The notes below the pieces were generated by a model, which searched no databases, was not told the DNA's origin, and was given only the letters and a program-made list of their open reading frames with translations. A stretch of DNA of 8,587 nt. It comes from Novosphingobium sp. Its GTDB lineage: Bacteria > Pseudomonadota > Alphaproteobacteria > Sphingomonadales > Sphingomonadaceae. This document shows positions 1 to 8,587 of the stretch, piece after piece (the stretch's first letter is position 1; every line of letters starts with the position of its first letter). Location of the stretch: assembly GCA_009885425.1 (NCBI GenBank), contig VFKS01000230.1, forward strand, positions 1-8,587, given 5' to 3'. Position numbers and translations under genes: made by a program.

Positions 1-1257
1 CGCAGCTTTGACCGGCTTGAACAGTTCATCGAAGCTGGAACAGCGGTATCGGGCCTGTGGTGCGAGGATTGGGCCGGGATCCGCGAGACCAGCTTTGGCC
101 GCCGGCTGTTCTGGGACTGGCGCCGCGACAACCAGCGCTTTCCCGATCTGCCCAAACGGATCGCGCGTCTGGCGGCGCGCGGGATCCGCTTTCTGGCCTA
201 TGCCAACCCCTATTTGTGCAACGATGGAATCCTCTACGAAGAAGCGCGCGAGCAGGGGCACTTCTGCCTCCGTCAGGATAGCGACGAGGTCTATCTGGTC
301 GATTTCGGCGAGTTCGATTGCGGGGTGATCGATTTCACCCGCACTGAGACCCGCGAGTGGTTTGCCGAAAAAGTGCTGGGCCGCGAAATGCTCGACATCG
401 GGATCGCTGGGTGGATGGCCGATTTCGGTGAGTACCTGCCAACCGATGTCCGGCTCGCTGATGGCTCCGACCCGATGGAAGCGCACAACCGCTGGCCGGT
501 GCTGTGGGCTGAAGTCAACGCGATGGCGCTGGCCAGCCGGGGCCAAACCGGTGAGGCGGTGTTCTTTATGCGCGCCGGGTTCAGCGGCGTTCAGGCGCAT
601 TGCCCGCTGCTGTGGGCCGGCGACCAGTCGGTTGATTTCACCCGCCATGACGGGATCGGCACCGTCATCACCGGGGCGCTTTCGGCAGGCCTTGTCGGCA
701 ATGCCTACAGCCATTCCGATTGCGGCGGTTACACTTCACTGCTCGGCAATGTCCGGACTGCGGAACTGATGGAGCGCTGGTGCGAGCTGGCTGCCTTTGC
801 CCCGGTAATGCGCAGCCACGAAGGCAACCGCCCGGACGACAATCTGCAGTATGACAGCACGCCGGAGCTGCTGGCCTGCTTCGCCCGGTGGAGCCGGGTT
901 CATGCGAATCTTGCACCCTATGTGCGGCACTTGTGCGATGAAGCGGTCAGCGCCGGATTGCCGGCGCAGCGCCCGCTGTTCCTGCACTACCCGGACGATC
1001 CGTCGCTCTACGCGGTGCAGGACCAGTTCCTCTACGGTGCCGATCTGCTGGTCGCGCCAGTGATCGAGGAAGGCGCGCTTGCCCGTTCGGTGATCCTTCC
1101 CGGTGAGGGCCCTTGGCGGCATTGCTGGACCGGGCAGGACTATGCCCCCGGCACCTACGAAATTGCTGCCCCGATTGGCCAGCCGCCGGTCTTCTATCGC
1201 CCGGACAGCGCTTTTGCCGCACTGTTCGGCGGGCTAAACGGAGTGCTGGGACAATGA
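1..1257 (+). CDS. yihQ: Sulfoquinovosidase, GH31 family (YihQ/SmoI-like), 5'-truncated by the window edge
   Basis: Reading frame 1 is open from the window edge and gives 418 residues, roughly the C-terminal 60% of a GH31 glycosidase; the true start lies upstream. The enzyme hydrolyses alpha-sulfoquinovosides such as sulfoquinovosyl glycerol to sulfoquinovose. It aligns closely from memory with E. coli YihQ. The nucleophile Asp is in GWMADFGEY (residue 141 of the fragment, codon 421-423) and the acid/base Asp is in WAGDQ (residue 208, codon 622-624). The sulfonate-recognition residues are also present: Arg35 and Trp38 in TSFGRRLFW (equivalents of YihQ R301 and W304) and Tyr244 in SDCGGYT (equivalent of Y508). 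Position 22, in CEDW, is Glu where YihQ has Gln288, which matches the KERWY-type subgroup of the Agrobacterium enzyme. The Lys of that motif should fall just outside the window. These residues separate it from ordinary GH31 alpha-glucosidases. It overlaps the regulator start by an ATGA. No signal peptide can be judged because the N-terminus is missing. Confidence 0.93.
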   Translation, partial: RSFDRLEQFIEAGTAVSGLWCEDWAGIRETSFGRRLFWDWRRDNQRFPDLPKRIARLAARGIRFLAYANPYLCNDGILYEEAREQGHFCLRQDSDEVYLVDFGEFDCGVIDFTRTETREWFAEKVLGREMLDIGIAGWMADFGEYLPTDVRLADGSDPMEAHNRWPVLWAEVNAMALASRGQTGEAVFFMRAGFSGVQAHCPLLWAGDQSVDFTRHDGIGTVITGALSAGLVGNAYSHSDCGGYTSLLGNVRTAELMERWCELAAFAPVMRSHEGNRPDDNLQYDSTPELLACFARWSRVHANLAPYVRHLCDEAVSAGLPAQRPLFLHYPDDPSLYAVQDQFLYGADLLVAPVIEEGALARSVILPGEGPWRHCWTGQDYAPGTYEIAAPIGQPPVFYRPDSAFAALFGGLNGVLGQ

Positions 1258-2267
1258 GCGAGCGGTCGAACATCCGCGACGTGGCGGCCCTGGCCGGAGT
1301 GGCGGTCAAGACGGTCAGCCGGGTGCTCAACGGCCATCCCTATGTCAGCGCCGAAACCAAGGCCCGGGTTGACGAGGCGATGCTGGCGCTTGATTTTCGG
1401 CCAAGCGTGGCAGCGCGGATCCTGTCGGGCGCAAAGAGCAACCAGATCGCGCTGATCTATGACAATCATAGCCCGTTCTACATGTTCCAGATCCAGACCG
1501 GCTGCTGGGAATACTGCAAGGCCCACGGCATCCGCTTGCTGGCCCAGCCAGTCGATGTGGCCGATCCGCAGGTCGGCGAGCAGGTCCGCGGGCTGGTCAC
1601 CGAAACCCATGTCGACGGGATCATTCTGTCTTCGCCTGTGACCGATTGTGATCCGGTGCTGCGCGCGCTGGAATCGATGGACATTCCGTTCGTGCGAATC
1701 TCGCCCGGCACCAACCACGCGCTGACCAGTTCGGTGTTCATGGACGATGCCCAGGCGGCGGATGACATGACCACCCACCTGATCAACCACGGCCACCGCC
1801 GGATCGGGTTCATCAAGGGCCATCCCAATCACATGGCCTCTGACGACCGCTTGAACGGATACCGACGCGCGCTGAGCCGGGCTGGGATCAGCTATGCCGC
1901 TGAGCTGGTCTGCGATGGTGCATTCGATTTTGAAAGCGGGGTGCGCGCGGCTGAATTGTTCCTGGCCATGCCCGACCGGCCAACCGCGATATTCGCCTCG
2001 AACGACGATATGGCCGCCGGGGTTCTGGCCGTGGCGCATGATCGCGGGATCAGCCTGCCGGATCAGCTTTCGGTCGCCGGGTTCGACGATACCACGCTGG
2101 CCCGCACGGTCTGGCCGCCGCTGACCACGATCCATCAGCCGATGGCGGAACTTGCCCGCACCGCTACCGAAATCCTCATCGCCGGGGGTGATATCAACCA
2201 TCGCCGCTTGCCCCATAGACTCGTCGAGCGCGCATCGGTCGCGCCGCCATTCAGGAAACCAACATGA
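1254..2267 (+). CDS. LacI-family transcriptional regulator, probable sulfoquinovose-operon regulator
   Basis: This 337-residue protein has normal LacI/GalR length. Residues 6-28 (NIRDVAALAGVAVKTVSRVLNG) form the classic N-terminal helix-turn-helix. A hinge helix follows at about 49-60, and a periplasmic-binding-protein-like effector domain covers about 64-325, with the family motifs GHRRIGFIKG, FASNDDMAAGVL and LSVAGFDDTTLA. The open frame extends further upstream, but the start at 1254 is chosen because the helix-turn-helix follows it directly, it forms an ATGA overlap with the glycosidase stop, and GGAG lies at 1240-1243. The ligand cannot be read from sequence. From its position inside a sulfoquinovose operon I infer that it senses SQ, a sulfoquinovoside or the 6-oxo-glucose product. 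Being inside the operon, it is probably autoregulated. Its operator is presumably upstream of the window; I found no convincing LacI-type palindrome here. Confidence 0.92.
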   Translation: MSERSNIRDVAALAGVAVKTVSRVLNGHPYVSAETKARVDEAMLALDFRPSVAARILSGAKSNQIALIYDNHSPFYMFQIQTGCWEYCKAHGIRLLAQPVDVADPQVGEQVRGLVTETHVDGIILSSPVTDCDPVLRALESMDIPFVRISPGTNHALTSSVFMDDAQAADDMTTHLINHGHRRIGFIKGHPNHMASDDRLNGYRRALSRAGISYAAELVCDGAFDFESGVRAAELFLAMPDRPTAIFASNDDMAAGVLAVAHDRGISLPDQLSVAGFDDTTLARTVWPPLTTIHQPMAELARTATEILIAGGDINHRRLPHRLVERASVAPPFRKPT

Positions 2268-3178
2268 GCGCATTACCCCTACCGCCCGCCACCCGCAGCC
2301 TTGGTTCCAGCGGGATTACTGTATCGTCGATCGCCTGGGGGATGTGGCGGCTGGCCGAAGGCGGACGCTCTGCCGCAGAGGCGGCGGCCTTGGTCCATGC
2401 TGCGCTCGATGCCGGGGTCAACTTCCTCGATACGGCTGATATCTATGGCTTTAACGGGACAAGCGGGTTTGGTGATGCCGAAGCGCTGCTGGGCGAAGTG
2501 CTCAGCGCGGAACCGGCGCTGCGCGGGCAGATGGTGCTCGCCACCAAGGGCGGAATCATGCCGCCGTTGCCCTATGACCAATCGCCCGAATACCTGCGCA
2601 GTGCGATTGATGCCTCGCTGGCCCGGCTGAAGACCGACAGTGTCGATCTTTGGCAAATTCACCGGCCCGACATTCTCGCCCATCCGCAGGAAGTGGCGCG
2701 GGTGCTCGACGATGCGGTAGCGGCGGGCAAGATCCGCACGATTGGCGTGTCGAACTTCACGCAGGCCCAGATCGCGGCGCTCAACCATTTTCTCGGCCAC
2801 AAACTGGTTTCCACCCAGCCCGAAATCAGCGCGCTGCGGATCGATTGCTTTGAGAATGGTGAGCTCGATCAGGCGATGCAGTTGGGGCTGACCCCCTTGG
2901 CTTGGTCGCCTTTGGGCGGCGGGCGGATTGCTGGCGGTGATAGCGCGCGCGACAAGGCGGTAATCGCCGAGCTCGACCGGGTCGCCGCTGCCAAGGGCAT
3001 TTCGCGCAGTGTCGCGGCCTATTCGTGGTTGCTGGCCCATCCTGCCGGGATCATTCCGATCATCGGATCGCAGCAGGCCGAACGGATTGCCGAGGGTGCA
3101 TCGGCGCTCAGCGTCCAGTGGGACCGCACCGATTGGTACGCGGTGCTGGTCGCCGCACGAGGAGAACGACTGCCATGA
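2264..3178 (+). CDS. smoB: Aldo/keto reductase, probable 6-deoxy-6-oxo-glucose reductase (SmoB-like)
   Basis: This 304-residue cytoplasmic NAD(P)H-dependent oxidoreductase has the single (alpha/beta)8-barrel AKR layout. The catalytic tetrad is visible: Asp56 and Tyr61 in FLDTADIYG, Lys95 in VLATKGG and His133 in DLWQIHRPD. IRTIGVSNF (158-165) and the C-terminal nucleotide-binding segment IPIIGSQQAERI (264-275) are typical of the family. The start at 2264 forms an ATGA overlap with the regulator and has AGGA about 8 nt upstream. By itself the sequence supports only 'aldo/keto reductase', with resemblance to the YdhF group. The specific role comes from context: in the Agrobacterium SQ monooxygenase pathway an AKR (SmoB) reduces 6-oxo-glucose, released by C-S cleavage, to glucose. 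The adjacency of sulfoquinovosidase and SsuD-like monooxygenase genes makes that the best assignment. An alternative is an SQ dehydrogenase-type activity, which is less likely. Confidence 0.85.
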   Translation: MSALPLPPATRSLGSSGITVSSIAWGMWRLAEGGRSAAEAAALVHAALDAGVNFLDTADIYGFNGTSGFGDAEALLGEVLSAEPALRGQMVLATKGGIMPPLPYDQSPEYLRSAIDASLARLKTDSVDLWQIHRPDILAHPQEVARVLDDAVAAGKIRTIGVSNFTQAQIAALNHFLGHKLVSTQPEISALRIDCFENGELDQAMQLGLTPLAWSPLGGGRIAGGDSARDKAVIAELDRVAAAKGISRSVAAYSWLLAHPAGIIPIIGSQQAERIAEGASALSVQWDRTDWYAVLVAARGERLP

Positions 3179-4254
3179 CCCAGCCGACAACCCAGCCCCA
3201 GTGCGAAATCTCGTGGTTCTCAGCCCTGTGCGATGACGATTATGAATTCCTCGGCGTGCCCGATCCCTATCTGGCGTCGAGCTGGGAACATTGCCGCAAT
3301 ATCGTGATGCGCGCCGAAGAAGGCGGGTTCGACAACGTCTTGTTGCCCTCGGGCTATGCCCTCGGCCTTGATACCACCGTGTTCGCCGCGGCTGTGGCGA
3401 CGCAGGTTCAGCGTATCCGCCTGCTGATGGCGGTGCGGATTGGTGAGGACTGGCCGCCGCAACTAGCCCGCCGGATCGCCACGCTCGACCGGATTTTGGG
3501 AGGGCGGTTGACCGTCAATATCATCTCGTCGGACATTCCGGGGGAAACTATGGAAGGTGGCCCGCGCTATGCCCGCACGGTTGAGGCGATGAAGATCCTC
3601 AAGACCATGCTGAACGGCGAGCACCTGTCTCACAAGGGCGAGTTCTATCAGTTGGAGCTCGATCCGCCGCGGATGACCACGGTGTCGGGCAAGTGCCCGC
3701 CGCTCTACTTCGGCGGGCTCAGCCCAGTTGCGCGCGAATGCGCCGCCGAAGCTGCCGACGTATACCTGATGTGGCCCGATACGATGGACAAGGTCCGCGA
3801 GACGGTGACCGATATGAAGGAACGCGCTGCGAAGTTCGGCCGCACGCTCAAATACGGCTACCGCGCCCATGTGATCGTTCGCGAGACTGAGGACGAAGCG
3901 CGCGCCTATGCCGACCGTCTGCTATCCAAGCTGGACGAGGAAGCCGGCAAAGCGATCCGTGAGAAGTCGCTGGATGCCAAGAACTATGGCGTCCAGCGTC
4001 AGGCCGAATTGCGCGGCGCAGCGGGCGGTGACGGGTTTGTCGAGGACAACCTGTGGACCGGGATCGGCCGGGCCCGATCGGGCTGCGGTGCGGCGATAGT
4101 CGGCACCCCCGATCAAGTCCTGGCCAAGCTGCGAGCCTATCAAGCCGAAGGGATTGAGGCTTTCATCCTGTCGGGCTATCCGCATGTGAACGAGTGCGAC
4201 ATGTTCGCGCGCTATGTCCTGCCGCACATCCAGCACGGTCCGCTGACACTCTGA
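3175..4254 (+). CDS. smoC: FMNH2-dependent alkanesulfonate monooxygenase of the LLM family, probable sulfoquinovose monooxygenase (SmoC/SquD-like)
   Basis: This 359-residue bacterial luciferase-like flavin monooxygenase is close in length and sequence style to SsuD. It is proposed to use FMNH2 and O2 to cleave the C-S bond of sulfoquinovose, giving sulfite and 6-oxo-glucose. Visible SsuD-equivalent active-site residues are Arg230 and His232 in YGYRAHVIVRET (SsuD R226/H228), Arg301 in GIGRARSGCG (R297) and Tyr335 in LSGYPH (Y331). SsuD Cys54 is not conserved: the segment PSGYALGLD (58-66) has no Cys. The open frame extends upstream, but ATG 3175 is chosen because it makes an ATGA overlap with the reductase stop, has GAGGAGA at 3159-3165, and begins just before the conserved N-terminal strand. 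Position between a sulfoquinovosidase cluster and an FMN reductase gives the substrate inference. A generic alkanesulfonate monooxygenase is the alternative. Confidence 0.9.
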   Translation: MTQPTTQPQCEISWFSALCDDDYEFLGVPDPYLASSWEHCRNIVMRAEEGGFDNVLLPSGYALGLDTTVFAAAVATQVQRIRLLMAVRIGEDWPPQLARRIATLDRILGGRLTVNIISSDIPGETMEGGPRYARTVEAMKILKTMLNGEHLSHKGEFYQLELDPPRMTTVSGKCPPLYFGGLSPVARECAAEAADVYLMWPDTMDKVRETVTDMKERAAKFGRTLKYGYRAHVIVRETEDEARAYADRLLSKLDEEAGKAIREKSLDAKNYGVQRQAELRGAAGGDGFVEDNLWTGIGRARSGCGAAIVGTPDQVLAKLRAYQAEGIEAFILSGYPHVNECDMFARYVLPHIQHGPLTL

Positions 4255-4266
4255 GAGGAATATCTT

Positions 4267-4842
4267 GTGACTACCCGGATCGTCGCCATCGGCGGCACCG
4301 TCAATCCCGGTTCGACCACCGAACAGGCGCTGCGGCTGGCGGCTGCGGCGGCTGGTGCGGGCGGGGCAGAGGTGCAGGTGTTTGGCGGGGCCTACCTCGC
4401 CAAGCTGCCGCACTATGGCAGCGCCGAACACCAAAAGGGTGATGGCAGCGAACTGGTCGAAGCGGTGCGCGCCGCCGATGGCCTGCTGATCGCGGCGCCC
4501 GGCTATCACGGCACGATTTCGGGGCTGGTCAAGAACGCGCTCGATTTCCTTGAAGACCTGTCAAAGGATACGCGGCCCTATCTTGATGGCCGCGCGGTTG
4601 GCTTGATTGCCACCGCTTACGGCGATCAGGCGACAATGAGCACGCTCATCACAATGCGCGCGATTGTCCACGCGCTGCGCGGCTGGCCGACCCCGATGGG
4701 GGCGACGATCCGCACCTATCACGGGCTGTTCAGCCCCGATGGTGAGTGCCTTGATGACCGCGCGCGGTTGCAGCTTGAAATGGTCGGTGCGCAGGTGCTG
4801 CGCGGAGCGCAATCTTTTGCGGGAACGGCGGAGGGACAATGA
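4267..4842 (+). CDS. NAD(P)H-dependent FMN reductase, flavodoxin fold (SsuE/MsuE superfamily)
   Basis: This 191-residue protein is of the NADPH-dependent FMN reductase family (flavodoxin-like). The N-terminal strand and FMN-phosphate loop are IVAIGGTVNPGSTT (5-18), and the second flavin-contacting segment is APGYHGTISGLVKNALDFL (77-95). The role is to reduce free FMN and hand FMNH2 to the monooxygenase encoded immediately upstream, as in the SsuE/SsuD two-component system. The start is GTG at 4267. It is supported by AGAGGA at 4254-4259, with 7 nt of spacing, and by the conserved strand beginning at residue 5; the gap to the upstream stop is 12 nt. In the Agrobacterium pathway this role is filled by SmoA, but I cannot tell whether this protein belongs to the same fold family as SmoA, so no symbol is given. 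Confidence 0.88.
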   Translation: MTTRIVAIGGTVNPGSTTEQALRLAAAAAGAGGAEVQVFGGAYLAKLPHYGSAEHQKGDGSELVEAVRAADGLLIAAPGYHGTISGLVKNALDFLEDLSKDTRPYLDGRAVGLIATAYGDQATMSTLITMRAIVHALRGWPTPMGATIRTYHGLFSPDGECLDDRARLQLEMVGAQVLRGAQSFAGTAEGQ

Positions 4843-5432
4843 GCGGACGGCTGGATCAAGCACTCGCTGCCTTGGCCGCCGGCAAGGTCATCGTTCTCAC
4901 CGGCGACCGGCTGCGCGGCGGGGACATTGATTTCGCCGTGGCGGCGCGTCATGCCGATGCTGATACGGTCAACTTCATGGCCACCCATGGCCGCGGGCTG
5001 ATCTGCCTCGCGCTAACCCCGGCCCATGCGATGCGGCTTGGAATCAGCCTGATCAATCCCGGCAGCGACCGCCAGTCAGGCCGCCCGCACGGCCGCTCGA
5101 TCGAGGCGACAACCGGGGTTTCAACCGGTATTTCCGCCGCCGACCGGGCGCGGACGGTTGCCGTGGCGATTGATCCGGCTTCGAGTGGCGATGACCTGGT
5201 CTCTCCTGGCCACGTCTTCCCGCTGATCGCCGCTGCTGGCGGCGTGGCAGAGCGGCCTGCGGCATTGGAGGCGGCGATTGAACTGTGCCGCCGCGCCGGG
5301 GCCGGGGACGCCGCCGTGATCTGTTCGATCATGCGCGAAGATGGCGAAATGGCCCGGATCGAGGATCTGGCTGAACTGATCGCGGCGCACGGGCTGTGCG
5401 TTGCCGATCTGGGGGATTTGTTGCCGGGCTAG
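4839..5432 (+). CDS. RibB-like protein (3,4-dihydroxy-2-butanone-4-phosphate synthase fold) lacking key catalytic residues
   Basis: This 197-residue protein is close to the length of single-domain RibB. Family signatures are clear: VNFMATHGRGLICLALT (44-60), TTGVSTGISAADRARTV (91-107), SPGHVFPLIAAAGGV (122-136), VICSIMREDGEMAR (160-173) and a C-terminal LCVADLGDLL. However, the DRENEGD metal/substrate loop of RibB is DRLRGGD here (23-29), losing both glutamates. The GGHTEA motif reads PAALEA (140-145), losing the metal-binding His. The catalytic Glu of the CE motif is Ser163. Asp29 and His125 remain. Real RibB makes the four-carbon precursor of riboflavin from ribulose 5-phosphate; with these changes that activity is unlikely. 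The start gives an ATGA overlap with the FMN reductase and GGAGGG at 4830-4835, so it is the tightly coupled last gene of the operon. I infer a role linked to flavin or sugar handling in SQ desulfonation, but the function is unknown. The frame is intact, which argues for a maintained function rather than decay. Confidence 0.82.
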   Translation: MSGRLDQALAALAAGKVIVLTGDRLRGGDIDFAVAARHADADTVNFMATHGRGLICLALTPAHAMRLGISLINPGSDRQSGRPHGRSIEATTGVSTGISAADRARTVAVAIDPASSGDDLVSPGHVFPLIAAAGGVAERPAALEAAIELCRRAGAGDAAVICSIMREDGEMARIEDLAELIAAHGLCVADLGDLLPG

Positions 5433-5438
5433 GCTCTG

Positions 5439-5459
5439 TTGCCGATCAGCGATTGCCAA

Positions 5460-5466
<7 letters not shown>
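5439..5466 (+). promoter_or_regulatory. Candidate promoter of the quinone reductase-thiolase unit
   Basis: TTGCCG (5439-5444) and TTTAAC (5461-5466) are separated by 16 nt and resemble -35 and -10 boxes, each at about four of six consensus positions. A start site near 5473 would leave about 40 nt of leader before the GTG at 5514. It sits in the only sizeable gap between the SQ operon and the next gene, and the -10 falls inside a palindrome. This is a by-eye call and weak by itself. Confidence 0.35.
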
Positions 5467-6491
<1,025 letters not shown>

Positions 6492-6513
6492 CCCGCTATT
6501 AAGGAGAATTCCC

Positions 6514-7767
6514 ATGGCCGAAGCCTATATCATCGACGCCGTCCGCACCCCGCGCGGGGTGGGCAAACCCGGCAAAGGCGCGCTTTCGCACCTTCACCCG
6601 CAGCATCTGGCCGCGACTGTTCTGAAAGCGATCAAGGACCGCAACAACCTCGACACCGCAACGGTCGATGACATCATCTGGTCGACTTCTACCCAGAAGG
6701 GCAAACAGGGCGGCGATATGGGCCGGATGGCCGCGCTGGCGGCGGGTTATGACACCAAGGCCAGCGGCACCACGCTTGACCGGTTCTGCGGCGGCGGGAT
6801 TAGCTCGGTCAACTTTGCGACCGCATCGGTGATGAGCGGGATGGAAGACTGCGTAATCGCCGGTGGCACCGAAATGATGAGCTATACGGCGGCGATGGGC
6901 GCCGAAGAAGCCAACGCCGGGCTGAAGCCGATGGGCATGGGTTCGGGCAATGCGGCGCTCGACGCCATGCATCCGCAAAGCCACCAGGGCGTTTGCGGCG
7001 ATGCGATTGCGACGCTGGAAGGGATCAGCCGCGAAGCGCTGGACACGCTGGCGCTGGTCAGCCAGCAGCGCGCCGATGTTGCGATCAAGGAAGGCCGCTT
7101 TGCCAAGTCGATCGTCCCGGTGCTGAACGAGGACGGCTCGGTCGCACTCGACCGTGAGGAATTTCCCCGTCCCGAAACCACTGCCGAGGGTCTGGCCGCG
7201 CTCAAGCCCAGCTTCGCCGGGATCGCCGATTTCGATCTTGGCGGCACAACCTTCCGCAAGCAGATCAACCGCCGCTATCCTGATCTGGAAATCCAGCACT
7301 TCCACCACGCCGGCAATAGCTCGGGCGTGGTCGATGGCGCGGCCGCACTGCTGATCACCAGCAAGGCCTATGCCGACCAGCACGGGCTGAAACCGCGGGC
7401 CAAGATCGTGGCCTATTGCAACCAGGGCGATGACCCCACGCTGATGCTCAACGCCCCGGTTCCGGCGGCCAAGAAGGTGCTGGCCAAGGCCGGGCTGAGC
7501 AAGGACGATATCGATGTCTGGGAAATCAACGAGGCTTTTGCGGTGGTTGCCGAAAAGTTCATCCGCGATCTCGATCTTGACCGGGCCAAGGTCAATATCA
7601 ACGGCGGGGCCTGCGCGCTGGGCCACCCGATCGGCGCGACCGGATCGATCCTGATCGGCACGGCGCTGGATGAACTGGAACGCACGGGCGGCCGTTATGG
7701 CCTGATCACGATGTGCGCGGCCGGCGGCATGGCCCCGGCTATCATCATCGAGCGGATTGACGGCTGA
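6514..7767 (+). CDS. Thiolase (acetyl-CoA C-acetyltransferase / 3-ketoacyl-CoA thiolase family)
   Basis: This 417-residue protein is slightly longer than the usual ~390 for the family. It has a complete thiolase active site: nucleophilic Cys92 in DRFCGGG, Asn339 in the NEAF motif, His371 in [14 protein letters not shown] (364-377), and the base Cys401 in MCAAGG. The N-terminal [12 protein letters not shown] is also typical. It catalyses CoA-dependent cleavage of a 3-ketoacyl-CoA to acetyl-CoA plus a shortened acyl-CoA, or the reverse condensation; chain-length preference is not readable. The nucleophile loop CGGG differs from the commoner C-N/S-S-G form of FadA/PhaA, suggesting a separate subfamily. 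A strong AAGGAGA at 6501-6507 precedes the ATG. It is probably co-transcribed with the quinone reductase upstream. Two hairpins follow the stop codon. Confidence 0.92.
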
Positions 7768-7799
7768 TTCTGCAACACGTCAGCCGATTTTGCGCTTTT
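7761..7799 (+). terminator. Candidate intrinsic terminator of the thiolase transcript
   Basis: Exact 7-bp arms CGGCTGA (7761-7767) and TCAGCCG (7780-7786) enclose a 12-nt loop and are followed by ATTTTGCGCTTTT. The first arm includes the thiolase stop codon. The stem is short and the T-run is interrupted, so termination may be partial. Confidence 0.5.
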
Positions 7800-7830
7800 C
7801 GCCCCGGCCGTAGCTGATACGGTCGGGGCG
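7800..7830 (+). terminator. Strong hairpin between the thiolase and FAD-oxidase genes, possible second terminator
   Basis: CGCCCCGGCCGTA (7800-7812) pairs with TACGGTCGGGGCG (7818-7830) around a GCTGA loop: 13 pairs including one G-U. The tail ATGTGTTT is only weakly T-rich. The hairpin ends 20 nt before the start of the next gene and 8 nt before its ribosome binding site. It could end the upstream transcript together with the preceding stem-loop, or act as a leader structure for the FAD oxidase. Confidence 0.55.
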
Positions 7831-7850
7831 ATGTGTTTGGAGAGGGATGG

Positions 7851-8587
7851 ATGACCGACCTGCTGGACCAGATCGCTGCAATCGTTGGCCCGCAGGGGCT
7901 GCTGACCGGGGCTGACGTATCCGCCCGCGCGGCCGATTTCATGGGGCTGACGACGTGTCAGGCCAAGGCGATTGTCCGCCCAGCCAGCACGCAGGAACTC
8001 TCAGCGGTGATGAAGCTGTGCCACGCCGCTGGACAGGTGGTGGTGCCCGCCGGCGGCAATACCGGGTTGGTTCATGGCAATGTCTGCCAGCCAGATGACA
8101 TCCAGATCTCGCTGGAACGGATGCGCGGGATTGAGGCGATCGATCCGGTGGGCCGCACGATGATTGTCGGCGCAGGCTGCCCGGTGCAAGCCGCGCAGGA
8201 AGCGGCGGCAGAACGAGGCCTGAAATTCGCGGTCGATTGGGGCGCGCGCGGCTCGGCCACGATTGGCGGCGGGATCGCGACCAACGCCGGGGGCAATTCG
8301 GTGGTCCGCTTTGGCATGATGCGTGACAACGTGCTGGGGCTTGAAGCTGTGCTGGCCGACGGCACGGTGATTTCATCGCTCAACGTGCTACTTAAAAACA
8401 ACGCGGGCTATGATCTGAAGCAGCTGTTTATCGGCAGCGAGGGGACGCTGGGCATCGTCACTCGCGCGGTGCTGAAATTGCACCCAGCGCCGCTCTCCAC
8501 GGGCACCGCGCTGTTGGCGCTGGACAGTTTCGAAGCAGTCCAGCGGCTGTTCGTGCAAGCGGGTCAGCGGCTGGGCGGAATGCTGAC
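7851..8587 (+). CDS. FAD-linked oxidase of the GlcD / D-2-hydroxyglutarate dehydrogenase-like family, 3'-truncated
   Basis: The frame is open from ATG 7851 to the window edge (245 residues; usual family length about 460-480). It shows the VAO/PCMH-type FAD-binding domain: VRPASTQELSAVM (42-54), the pyrophosphate loop VVVPAGGNTGLVHG (63-76), GSATIGGGIATNAGGN (134-149) and GYDLKQLFIGSEGTLGIVT (186-204). A C-terminal FAD-oxidase domain would follow outside the window. Members oxidise D-2-hydroxyacids such as D-lactate, glycolate or D-2-hydroxyglutarate and pass electrons to quinone or ETF; the substrate cannot be chosen from this half. GGAGAGGG at 7839-7846 supports the start. Hairpins upstream suggest a transcription unit distinct from the thiolase. 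An overlapping ATG at 7847 is in another frame. Confidence 0.9.
   Translation, partial: MTDLLDQIAAIVGPQGLLTGADVSARAADFMGLTTCQAKAIVRPASTQELSAVMKLCHAAGQVVVPAGGNTGLVHGNVCQPDDIQISLERMRGIEAIDPVGRTMIVGAGCPVQAAQEAAAERGLKFAVDWGARGSATIGGGIATNAGGNSVVRFGMMRDNVLGLEAVLADGTVISSLNVLLKNNAGYDLKQLFIGSEGTLGIVTRAVLKLHPAPLSTGTALLALDSFEAVQRLFVQAGQRLGGML

Follow-up and report, generated by a model that had tools for sequence, protein, structure and literature searches.

The window analyzed here, the entire 8,587-nucleotide contig VFKS01000230.1 (C294) of a draft Novosphingobium genome (557 contigs totalling 2.39 Mb, with a completeness of 80.6%), is predicted from its sequence to carry most of a sulfo-ASMO-type operon for sulfoquinovose (SQ) degradation, and the last gene of this operon encodes a protein that has the fold of RibB, 3,4-dihydroxy-2-butanone 4-phosphate (DHBP) synthase, and is devoid of the catalytic residues of that enzyme. 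As a whole, we lean slightly toward a sulfo-ASMO-type operon equipped with a RibB-fold protein that handles oxidized or reduced flavin mononucleotide, FMN(H2), as a partner of the flavin reductase encoded immediately upstream. That the RibB-like protein is a partner of the reductase seems fairly probable when taken by itself, and the binding of FMN(H2) in the old RibB pocket is a tentative and rather doubtful proposal. A sequence-only reading of the window had listed the RibB-like gene among the possible distinguishing marks of the cluster, and this gene is indeed its interesting part; the label stands as regards fold and family, but the protein is not a normal RibB, its catalytic positions being changed.

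A RibB-fold protein without the catalytic residues of DHBP synthase

In the alignment with RibBs, where residue positions follow the numbering of E. coli RibB (Ec), the protein reads TGDRLRGGDID where RibBs read DDEDRENEGD, and its residues at Ec 38, 40, 153 and 174 are Gly, Asp, Ala and Ser, which leaves the metal-binding and catalytic set incomplete. The same holds for its family, represented by 58 sequences from 57 genes (that of locus L169 is a cut copy of that of L117). Position 38 is occupied by Gly (47 sequences), Arg (7), His (1), Asp (1), Glu (1) or a gap (1), position 40 by Asp in all 57 sequences with a letter there, position 153 by Ala (53) or Thr (5), and position 174 by Ser (46) or Ala (12). 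The sole member with Glu at 38, from L133, is nevertheless changed at 153 and 174. Glu38, Glu40, His153 and Glu174 are all kept in 12 of 12 sphingomonad RibBAs. What the family does retain are acidic residues and His136, and it has acquired an invariant Arg93-Pro94 in the lid loop.

The protein scores 183.4 bits against Pfam PF00926 and 157.9 bits against NCBIfam TIGR00506, below the cut-off of 177.45. It is 23–38% identical to solved RibBs and up to about 51% identical to RibBAs of the order Sphingomonadales, and its family forms one side of a tree branch with 100/100 support. The median ratio of nonsynonymous to synonymous substitution rates (dN/dS) is 0.246 for the RibB-like genes (dS was usable in 895 of the 1653 pairs), comparable with 0.233 for the FMN reductase and 0.219 for the GH31 glycosidase; for SmoC, the monooxygenase, it is 0.128. 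The structural model, with a predicted local distance difference test (pLDDT) score of 83.7, takes on the DHBP synthase fold, its lid loop (residues 77–94) scoring below 50, and all 46 Foldseek matches of this model at E ≤ 0.001 are RibB or RibBA entries. A decaying pseudogene was considered and rejected on the grounds of the purifying selection and the folded model. The RibB-like gene is a real and, it seems, undescribed accessory gene; no connection of SQ with a RibB gene was found in the open-licence papers searched, among which the original reports by Liu (2021) and Sharma (2022) were not covered.

As judged from its residues, the protein is very probably not a DHBP synthase. A real DHBP synthase that boosts the riboflavin supply for an FMNH2-hungry monooxygenase would agree with the preserved fold, the partly kept pocket and the linkage to a flavin-using enzyme, but Glu38, Glu40, His153 and Glu174 are changed across the family, and an intact RibBA with the DRENEGD motif is encoded elsewhere in the same genome, on contig C190. 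Moreover, V. cholerae RibB Glu39, the equivalent of Ec 38, is reported to bind both metals, and changes at Glu39, Glu41 and His154, the equivalents of Glu38, Glu40 and His153, to abolish activity (PMC5228156). We therefore regard this role as very unlikely.

A second alternative starts from the loops. A RibB monomer lends its loops 4 and 5 to the active site of its partner (loop roles according to PMC5228156), and the RibB-like protein, in which such a loop is preserved and much of the own site is gone, might be a pseudo-subunit that pairs with the RibBA of the cell, lends it a loop and tunes riboflavin synthesis in trans. When the positions conserved in 12 canonical RibBAs are counted, 9 of 13 are kept in the lent loops (6/6 in loop 4 and 3/7 in loop 5), compared with 9 of 30 in the cis segments, i.e. 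loops 1–3 plus the His153 stretch that we added (p = 0.02). However, the contrast is modest because 39 of 87 such positions are kept outside these segments, and loop 3, a cis loop, keeps 7 of 9. The pseudo-subunit, which we consider improbable, would also leave unexplained the reductase linkage and the fusions described below.

Linkage to the flavin reductase and to smoC

Relatives of the window's SmoC-type monooxygenase were surveyed in 296 genomes of the order at E ≤ 1e-60 and in 337 genomes of the class at 1e-90. SmoC is present in 56 of the former (54 at ≥70% identity, two at 52–53%) and in 19 of the latter, namely that of the window, 11 at 63–68% and 7 at 52–54%; the low-identity group of 52–54% we take to be the Agrobacterium type. 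The RibB-like gene was called present from about 49.5% identity upward (E ≤ 4e-55); weaker matches begin at 9e-51, and those of them whose residues were read are canonical. By this measure 23 of the 296 genomes carry it, and in all 23 the reductase gene lies within 80 bp and smoC within 11.3 kb. SmoC occurs without the RibB-like gene in 33 genomes and neither occurs in 240 (Fisher p = 2.8e-19, kinship ignored). Of the 56 SmoC-positive genomes, 30 have the reductase family at a distance of up to 20 kb, and 23 of these carry the RibB-like gene, whereas the 26 others all lack it (p = 8e-10, again ignoring kinship). In a second set, 50 genomes behind the loci of the contig scan described below, from which 14 known carriers were left out and in which several genomes are shared with the set of 296, 26 have the RibB-like gene, always (26/26) beside the reductase. 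In some loci about 11 kb separate smoC from the reductase/RibB-like pair, which there occupies the opposite arm of the locus. Among 20 other SmoC-positive genomes (18 outside the order and 2 of the low-identity group), no RibB-like match exceeded 47% identity, the residues of these matches being unread. That the RibB-like gene is a chance neighbor was rejected, as it is linked in 23 of 23 genomes.

The survey bears on a further alternative, in which the protein would be a new sugar enzyme, such as a mutarotase or isomerase acting on SQ or 6-dehydroglucose and reusing the old sugar-phosphate pocket. The occurrence of the gene, among the 296 genomes, only within 11.3 kb of smoC would suit such an enzyme, as would the combination of kept acidic residues and His136 with the new lid-loop pair. 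The gene is, however, absent from 33 of 56 SmoC-positive genomes, its tie to the reductase is closer than that to smoC, and a related domain is fused to a flavin reductase, all of which make a sugar enzyme seem unlikely.

Fusions of RibB domains with PF01613 reductases

A query in which the reductase and the RibB-like protein were joined yielded, among its best 120 rows, two proteins composed of a RibB domain followed by a flavin reductase domain of the family PF01613. The search with one such fusion, P0189, gave the RibB-PF01613 arrangement in 120 of the 120 matches listed, so that at least 120 fusions exist; the six of these that bear host names are from Actinobacteria or Solirubrobacterales. 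The fusions P0189, P0220 and P0241–P0358, where named, are mostly named as DHBP synthase. In the RibB domains of the 120 listed fusions, Glu38 is lost in 116 of the 117 with a letter at that position, Asn39 is replaced by Gly as in the window's family, Arg occupies position 153 in 118 of 120 and Gln position 174 in 120 of 120. Arg37, Asp42, Thr107, Gly108, Asp113, His136 and Arg150 are common (≥95%) to the RibB-like family and the fusions. The two groups form separate clades in the best tree, computed from 21 of the 58 RibB-like and 23 of the 120 fusion sequences, and are united in 39% of 200 bootstrap trees. The linkage with PF03358 in the one group and the fusion with PF01613 in the other mean that a RibB domain without the full catalytic set is tied to two unrelated reductase families. 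A literature search for DHBP synthase, flavin reductase and fusion led to a passage that concerns cofactor engineering.

Possible role of the RibB-like protein and points against it

RibB binds ribulose 5-phosphate, an open C5 chain with a 5-phosphate, and FMN carries a ribityl 5′-phosphate. The former ribulose-5-phosphate pocket of the RibB-like protein might hold the ribityl 5′-phosphate tail of FMN(H2) without performing any chemistry. The loss of the metal site, the retention of Arg37 and loop 4, and the remaking of the lid loop around Arg93-Pro94 would fit a pocket of this kind.

Several observations weigh against a partner that binds FMN(H2). The protein has also lost His153 and the loop-2 residues through which RibB contacts the phosphate of its substrate, which weakens the idea of a phosphate pocket. 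The loss of His153 alone is also not telling because Gln occupies this position in 22 of 22 RibBA controls, which were picked from the search with the joined query, keep Glu38, Glu40 and Glu174, and derive, for the few that bear host names, from Gaiella or Patulibacter. The catalytic losses of the fusions overlap with those of the window's family but are not identical to them, since Glu40 is retained in 117 of the 118 fusions with a letter at that position and Asp33 is retained as well; a fusion of PF03358 with RibB was not found among the best 120 rows of the joined-query search. The partner is dispensable because both SmoC and the reductase occur without the RibB-like gene: it is missing from 33 of the 56 SmoC-positive genomes and from 7 genomes in which SmoC and the reductase family are encoded no more than 20 kb apart, and 34 of the 296 genomes have the reductase family without SmoC. 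In addition, the reading frame of the reductase is interrupted by a stop in one of the 23 pairs, that of genome G240, and the adjacency could mean that the two genes move together as a pair rather than act jointly.

The operon and its pathway proteins

The sequence-only reading had assigned a glycosidase, a LacI regulator, an aldo/keto reductase (AKR), a monooxygenase, an FMN reductase and a RibB-like gene to positions 1–5432, and all six are found there on the plus strand at the places it gave (Table 1). Its claim that the genes are translationally coupled is right for four of the five junctions, which are four-base ATGA overlaps, and fails for that between the monooxygenase and the reductase genes, where a gap of 12 bases takes the place of an overlap. 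The GH31 gene is open at its 5′ end, the first base of the contig, and the N-terminal ∼250 residues of the protein, about one third, are missing.

Table 1. Genes of the predicted sulfo-ASMO-type operon in the window
Feature	Position	Strand	Remarks
GH31 sulfoquinovosidase (YihQ/SmoI type)	1..1257	+	PRK10426, 640.9 bits; best PDB entry 5ohy
LacI-family regulator	1254..2267	+	Start overlaps the GH31 stop as ATGA
SmoB/SquF-type AKR	2264..3178	+	Best PDB entries 7bbz/7bby
SmoC/SquD-type FMNH2-dependent monooxygenase	3175..4254	+	Best PDB entries 7olf, 7oh2
NADPH-dependent FMN reductase, GTG start	4267..4842	+	Pfam PF03358
RibB-like protein without DHBP synthase catalytic residues	4839..5432	+	Start overlaps the reductase stop as ATGA

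The GH31 protein exceeds the cut-off of NCBIfam PRK10426 (553 bits), and among solved structures the YihQ entry 5ohy is its first match (589 bits), 5ohs also being YihQ. Six structures match above 430 bits, four of them named YihQ and two generically (6pnr, 8r56), after which the scores drop to 145. Both Asp residues at Ec D405 and D472 are kept, as are the residues at Ec R301 and W304, and the position of Ec Q288 has Glu, as in 5ohy; the positions of D405, D472, R301 and W304 are presumably those of the catalytic and sulfonate-holding residues. Even with its N-terminal third off the contig, the protein thus has the sequence marks of a putative sulfoquinovosidase. The monooxygenase matches 7olf (378 bits) and 7oh2 (367 bits) far better than the next structures, 7jv3 (216) and 1nqk (191), and at 258.8 bits it reaches about half the cut-off of the SsuD equivalog TIGR03565 (518.2). 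The AKR matches 7bbz and 7bby at 187.5 and 186.3 bits, followed by 141.1. We take 7olf and 7oh2 to be SmoC and 7bbz and 7bby to be SmoB, though their depositors' names are generic; on this assumption the comparison with SmoI, SmoC and SmoB proposed by the sequence-only reading comes out as expected, and so does the logic of the sulfo-ASMO (Smo) route, in that the best solved-structure relative of each protein appears to be the one that the pathway calls for. The reductase falls far below the SsuE and MsuE equivalogs (27.7 of 164.05 and 31.0 of 212.5 bits), and it is this PF03358 protein that represents the flavin reductase in the cluster. A recent study takes SmoB-type and SmoC-type genes together as the mark of the pathway (PMC13372026), and the AKR and the monooxygenase form such a sulfo-ASMO/sulfo-SMO pair.

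In view of these similarities, the operon very probably serves an SQ pathway. The opposing explanation, that the monooxygenase acts on simple alkanesulfonates and the GH31 enzyme on ordinary α-glucosides, might draw on the homology of alkanesulfonate monooxygenases (7jv3), on generic family names and on the two generically named GH31 structures. It is extremely improbable, given the distance of 7olf and 7oh2 from the next structure, the wide miss of the SsuD cut-off, the four YihQ entries among the six best GH31 structures and the joint conservation of the gene set.

Gene content, gene order, protein families, residue changes, selection and linkage were observed directly, and the activities that we infer from them can be arranged as follows. 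SQ or SQ-glycerol would be imported by a TonB-dependent receptor and a major facilitator superfamily (MFS) permease, and the GH31 enzyme would free SQ from sulfoquinovosides. With FMNH2 supplied by the PF03358 reductase and with O2, the monooxygenase would cleave the C–S bond of SQ to give sulfite and 6-dehydroglucose, which the AKR would reduce to glucose, the operon probably being controlled by the LacI protein.

Neighborhood of the operon and of related loci

A contig scan with the monooxygenase gave 575 loci, and the best 80, nearly all sphingomonad-named (L006, L007 and L074 are named to class or phylum only), were compared. Relatives of GH31, LacI, AKR and SmoC are present together in 74 of these 80, the other six being without GH31 and/or LacI; because of this co-occurrence the gene order is not due to chance. 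The LacI relatives are 64–90% identical in the loci carrying one. When the open reading frames (ORFs) of the 80 loci were clustered and one representative per cluster was scanned with Pfam, a TonB receptor was found in 72 loci, MFS in 65, PF03601 (YeiH type) in 54 and a GlpD-like oxidase in 49, while 16 have an FGGY kinase, taken to be glycerol kinase. The last two would suit glycerol released from SQ-glycerol. Relatives of the reductase (68–69%) also occur at L172 and L175, in genomes without SmoC, where they adjoin GlpD-like genes; that of L175 also has a YeiH-like gene nearby, together with an ORF that, read by eye, resembles CysN.

Candidates for the upstream transporter that the sequence-only reading had proposed to look for lie on another contig. 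Contig C527 of the same genome (G000; L182, L190) carries a TonB receptor, 84% identical to that of L075, beside an MFS gene, 93% identical to its relative there. The receptor gene starts with the first base of C527; the MFS frame has one in-frame TAG relative to L075, either a base error or a real defect. C527 may be the upstream arm of the locus, a placement that rests on analogy with L075 because C527 and C294 are not joined.

Downstream of the RibB-like gene, a perfect palindrome, ATTTAAC-N6-GTTAAAT with 7-bp arms, is located at 5460–5479, before the next gene; its pattern has one match in the sequence and none in 200 shuffles, and it resembles an operator at which a repressor would control the genes that follow. 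A scan of positions 4700–6600 gave no promoter-like site (0.3 in shuffles) and two terminator-like sites (1.4 in shuffles). The remainder of the window (∼5478–8587) encodes a FabK/NMO-like protein, starting at ATG 5478 or, as we read it, at GTG 5514, then a PRK06025-type thiolase and an FAD oxidase resembling GlcD. These genes (∼5514–8587) were rejected as operon members. The three-gene block, which turned up in only one of the 80 loci, L082, is considered a separate neighbor because its distance from the RibB-like gene is about 4 kb greater there and because the palindrome intervenes here.

Comparison with known systems and implications

The sulfo-ASMO pathway has been studied in Agrobacterium and in Novosphingobium aromaticivorans, according to reviews (PMC9594981, PMC12890257), which bears out the mention of a Novosphingobium report in the sequence-only reading, and in 2026 relatives of 13C-SQ-labelled Novosphingobium were predicted to possess it as well (PMC13372026). 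The pathway core in the window is the known one, hence right but not new, because the reviews already report it from N. aromaticivorans. The system of that species (SquD, SquF) resembles the window in genus and in oxygenolytic C–S cleavage followed by aldehyde reduction. Its cluster, however, is said in a review to be without an SsuE homologue, whereas the window adds a PF03358 reductase and the RibB-like gene 3′ of the monooxygenase. The monooxygenase and the AKR of the Agrobacterium Smo cluster (SmoA, SmoB, SmoC, SmoI) are homologous to those of the window. At L180, of the low SmoC group taken as the Agrobacterium type, a PF01613 reductase follows the AKR; the window and L180 use unrelated reductases because that of the window belongs to PF03358. 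L180 also has TRAP-like transporter genes (read by eye), whereas loci related to the window have the TonB receptor and MFS.

The RibB-like protein has its fold and sequence family in common with RibB and RibBA, but it is stand-alone, changed at the catalytic positions and linked to a flavin reductase. Lumazine protein, which assists the FMNH2-dependent luciferase, differs from RibB in fold and ancestor. In luminous bacteria (Photobacterium) it is a riboflavin synthase relative that binds a flavin-like ligand (PMC8272222, PMC10049116), and its likeness to the RibB-like protein is one of analogy, no homology being claimed. Arabidopsis RIBA3 has a RibB domain with essential residues exchanged and DHBP synthase activity lost (PMC3509567); this domain is still joined to a working GTP cyclohydrolase II, in contrast to the stand-alone protein of the window.

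A more general and more speculative idea, to which we would give only a minor chance, is that sphingomonad SQ operons and, separately according to the best tree, actinobacterial fusions of RibB with a flavin reductase have converted the RibB fold into a non-catalytic holder, which would grip FMNH2 by its ribityl 5′-phosphate in the ribulose-5-phosphate pocket and pass it from the reductase to a luciferase-type monooxygenase. If true, this would be the second case, after lumazine protein, in which a riboflavin-making enzyme was recruited as a helper of a luciferase-family enzyme. Two-component systems have long posed the question of how the reductase hands reduced flavin to the monooxygenase without loss to oxygen. 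A conserved RibB-fold protein that lacks the catalytic set and is associated with two unrelated families of flavin reductases provides a concrete helper candidate.

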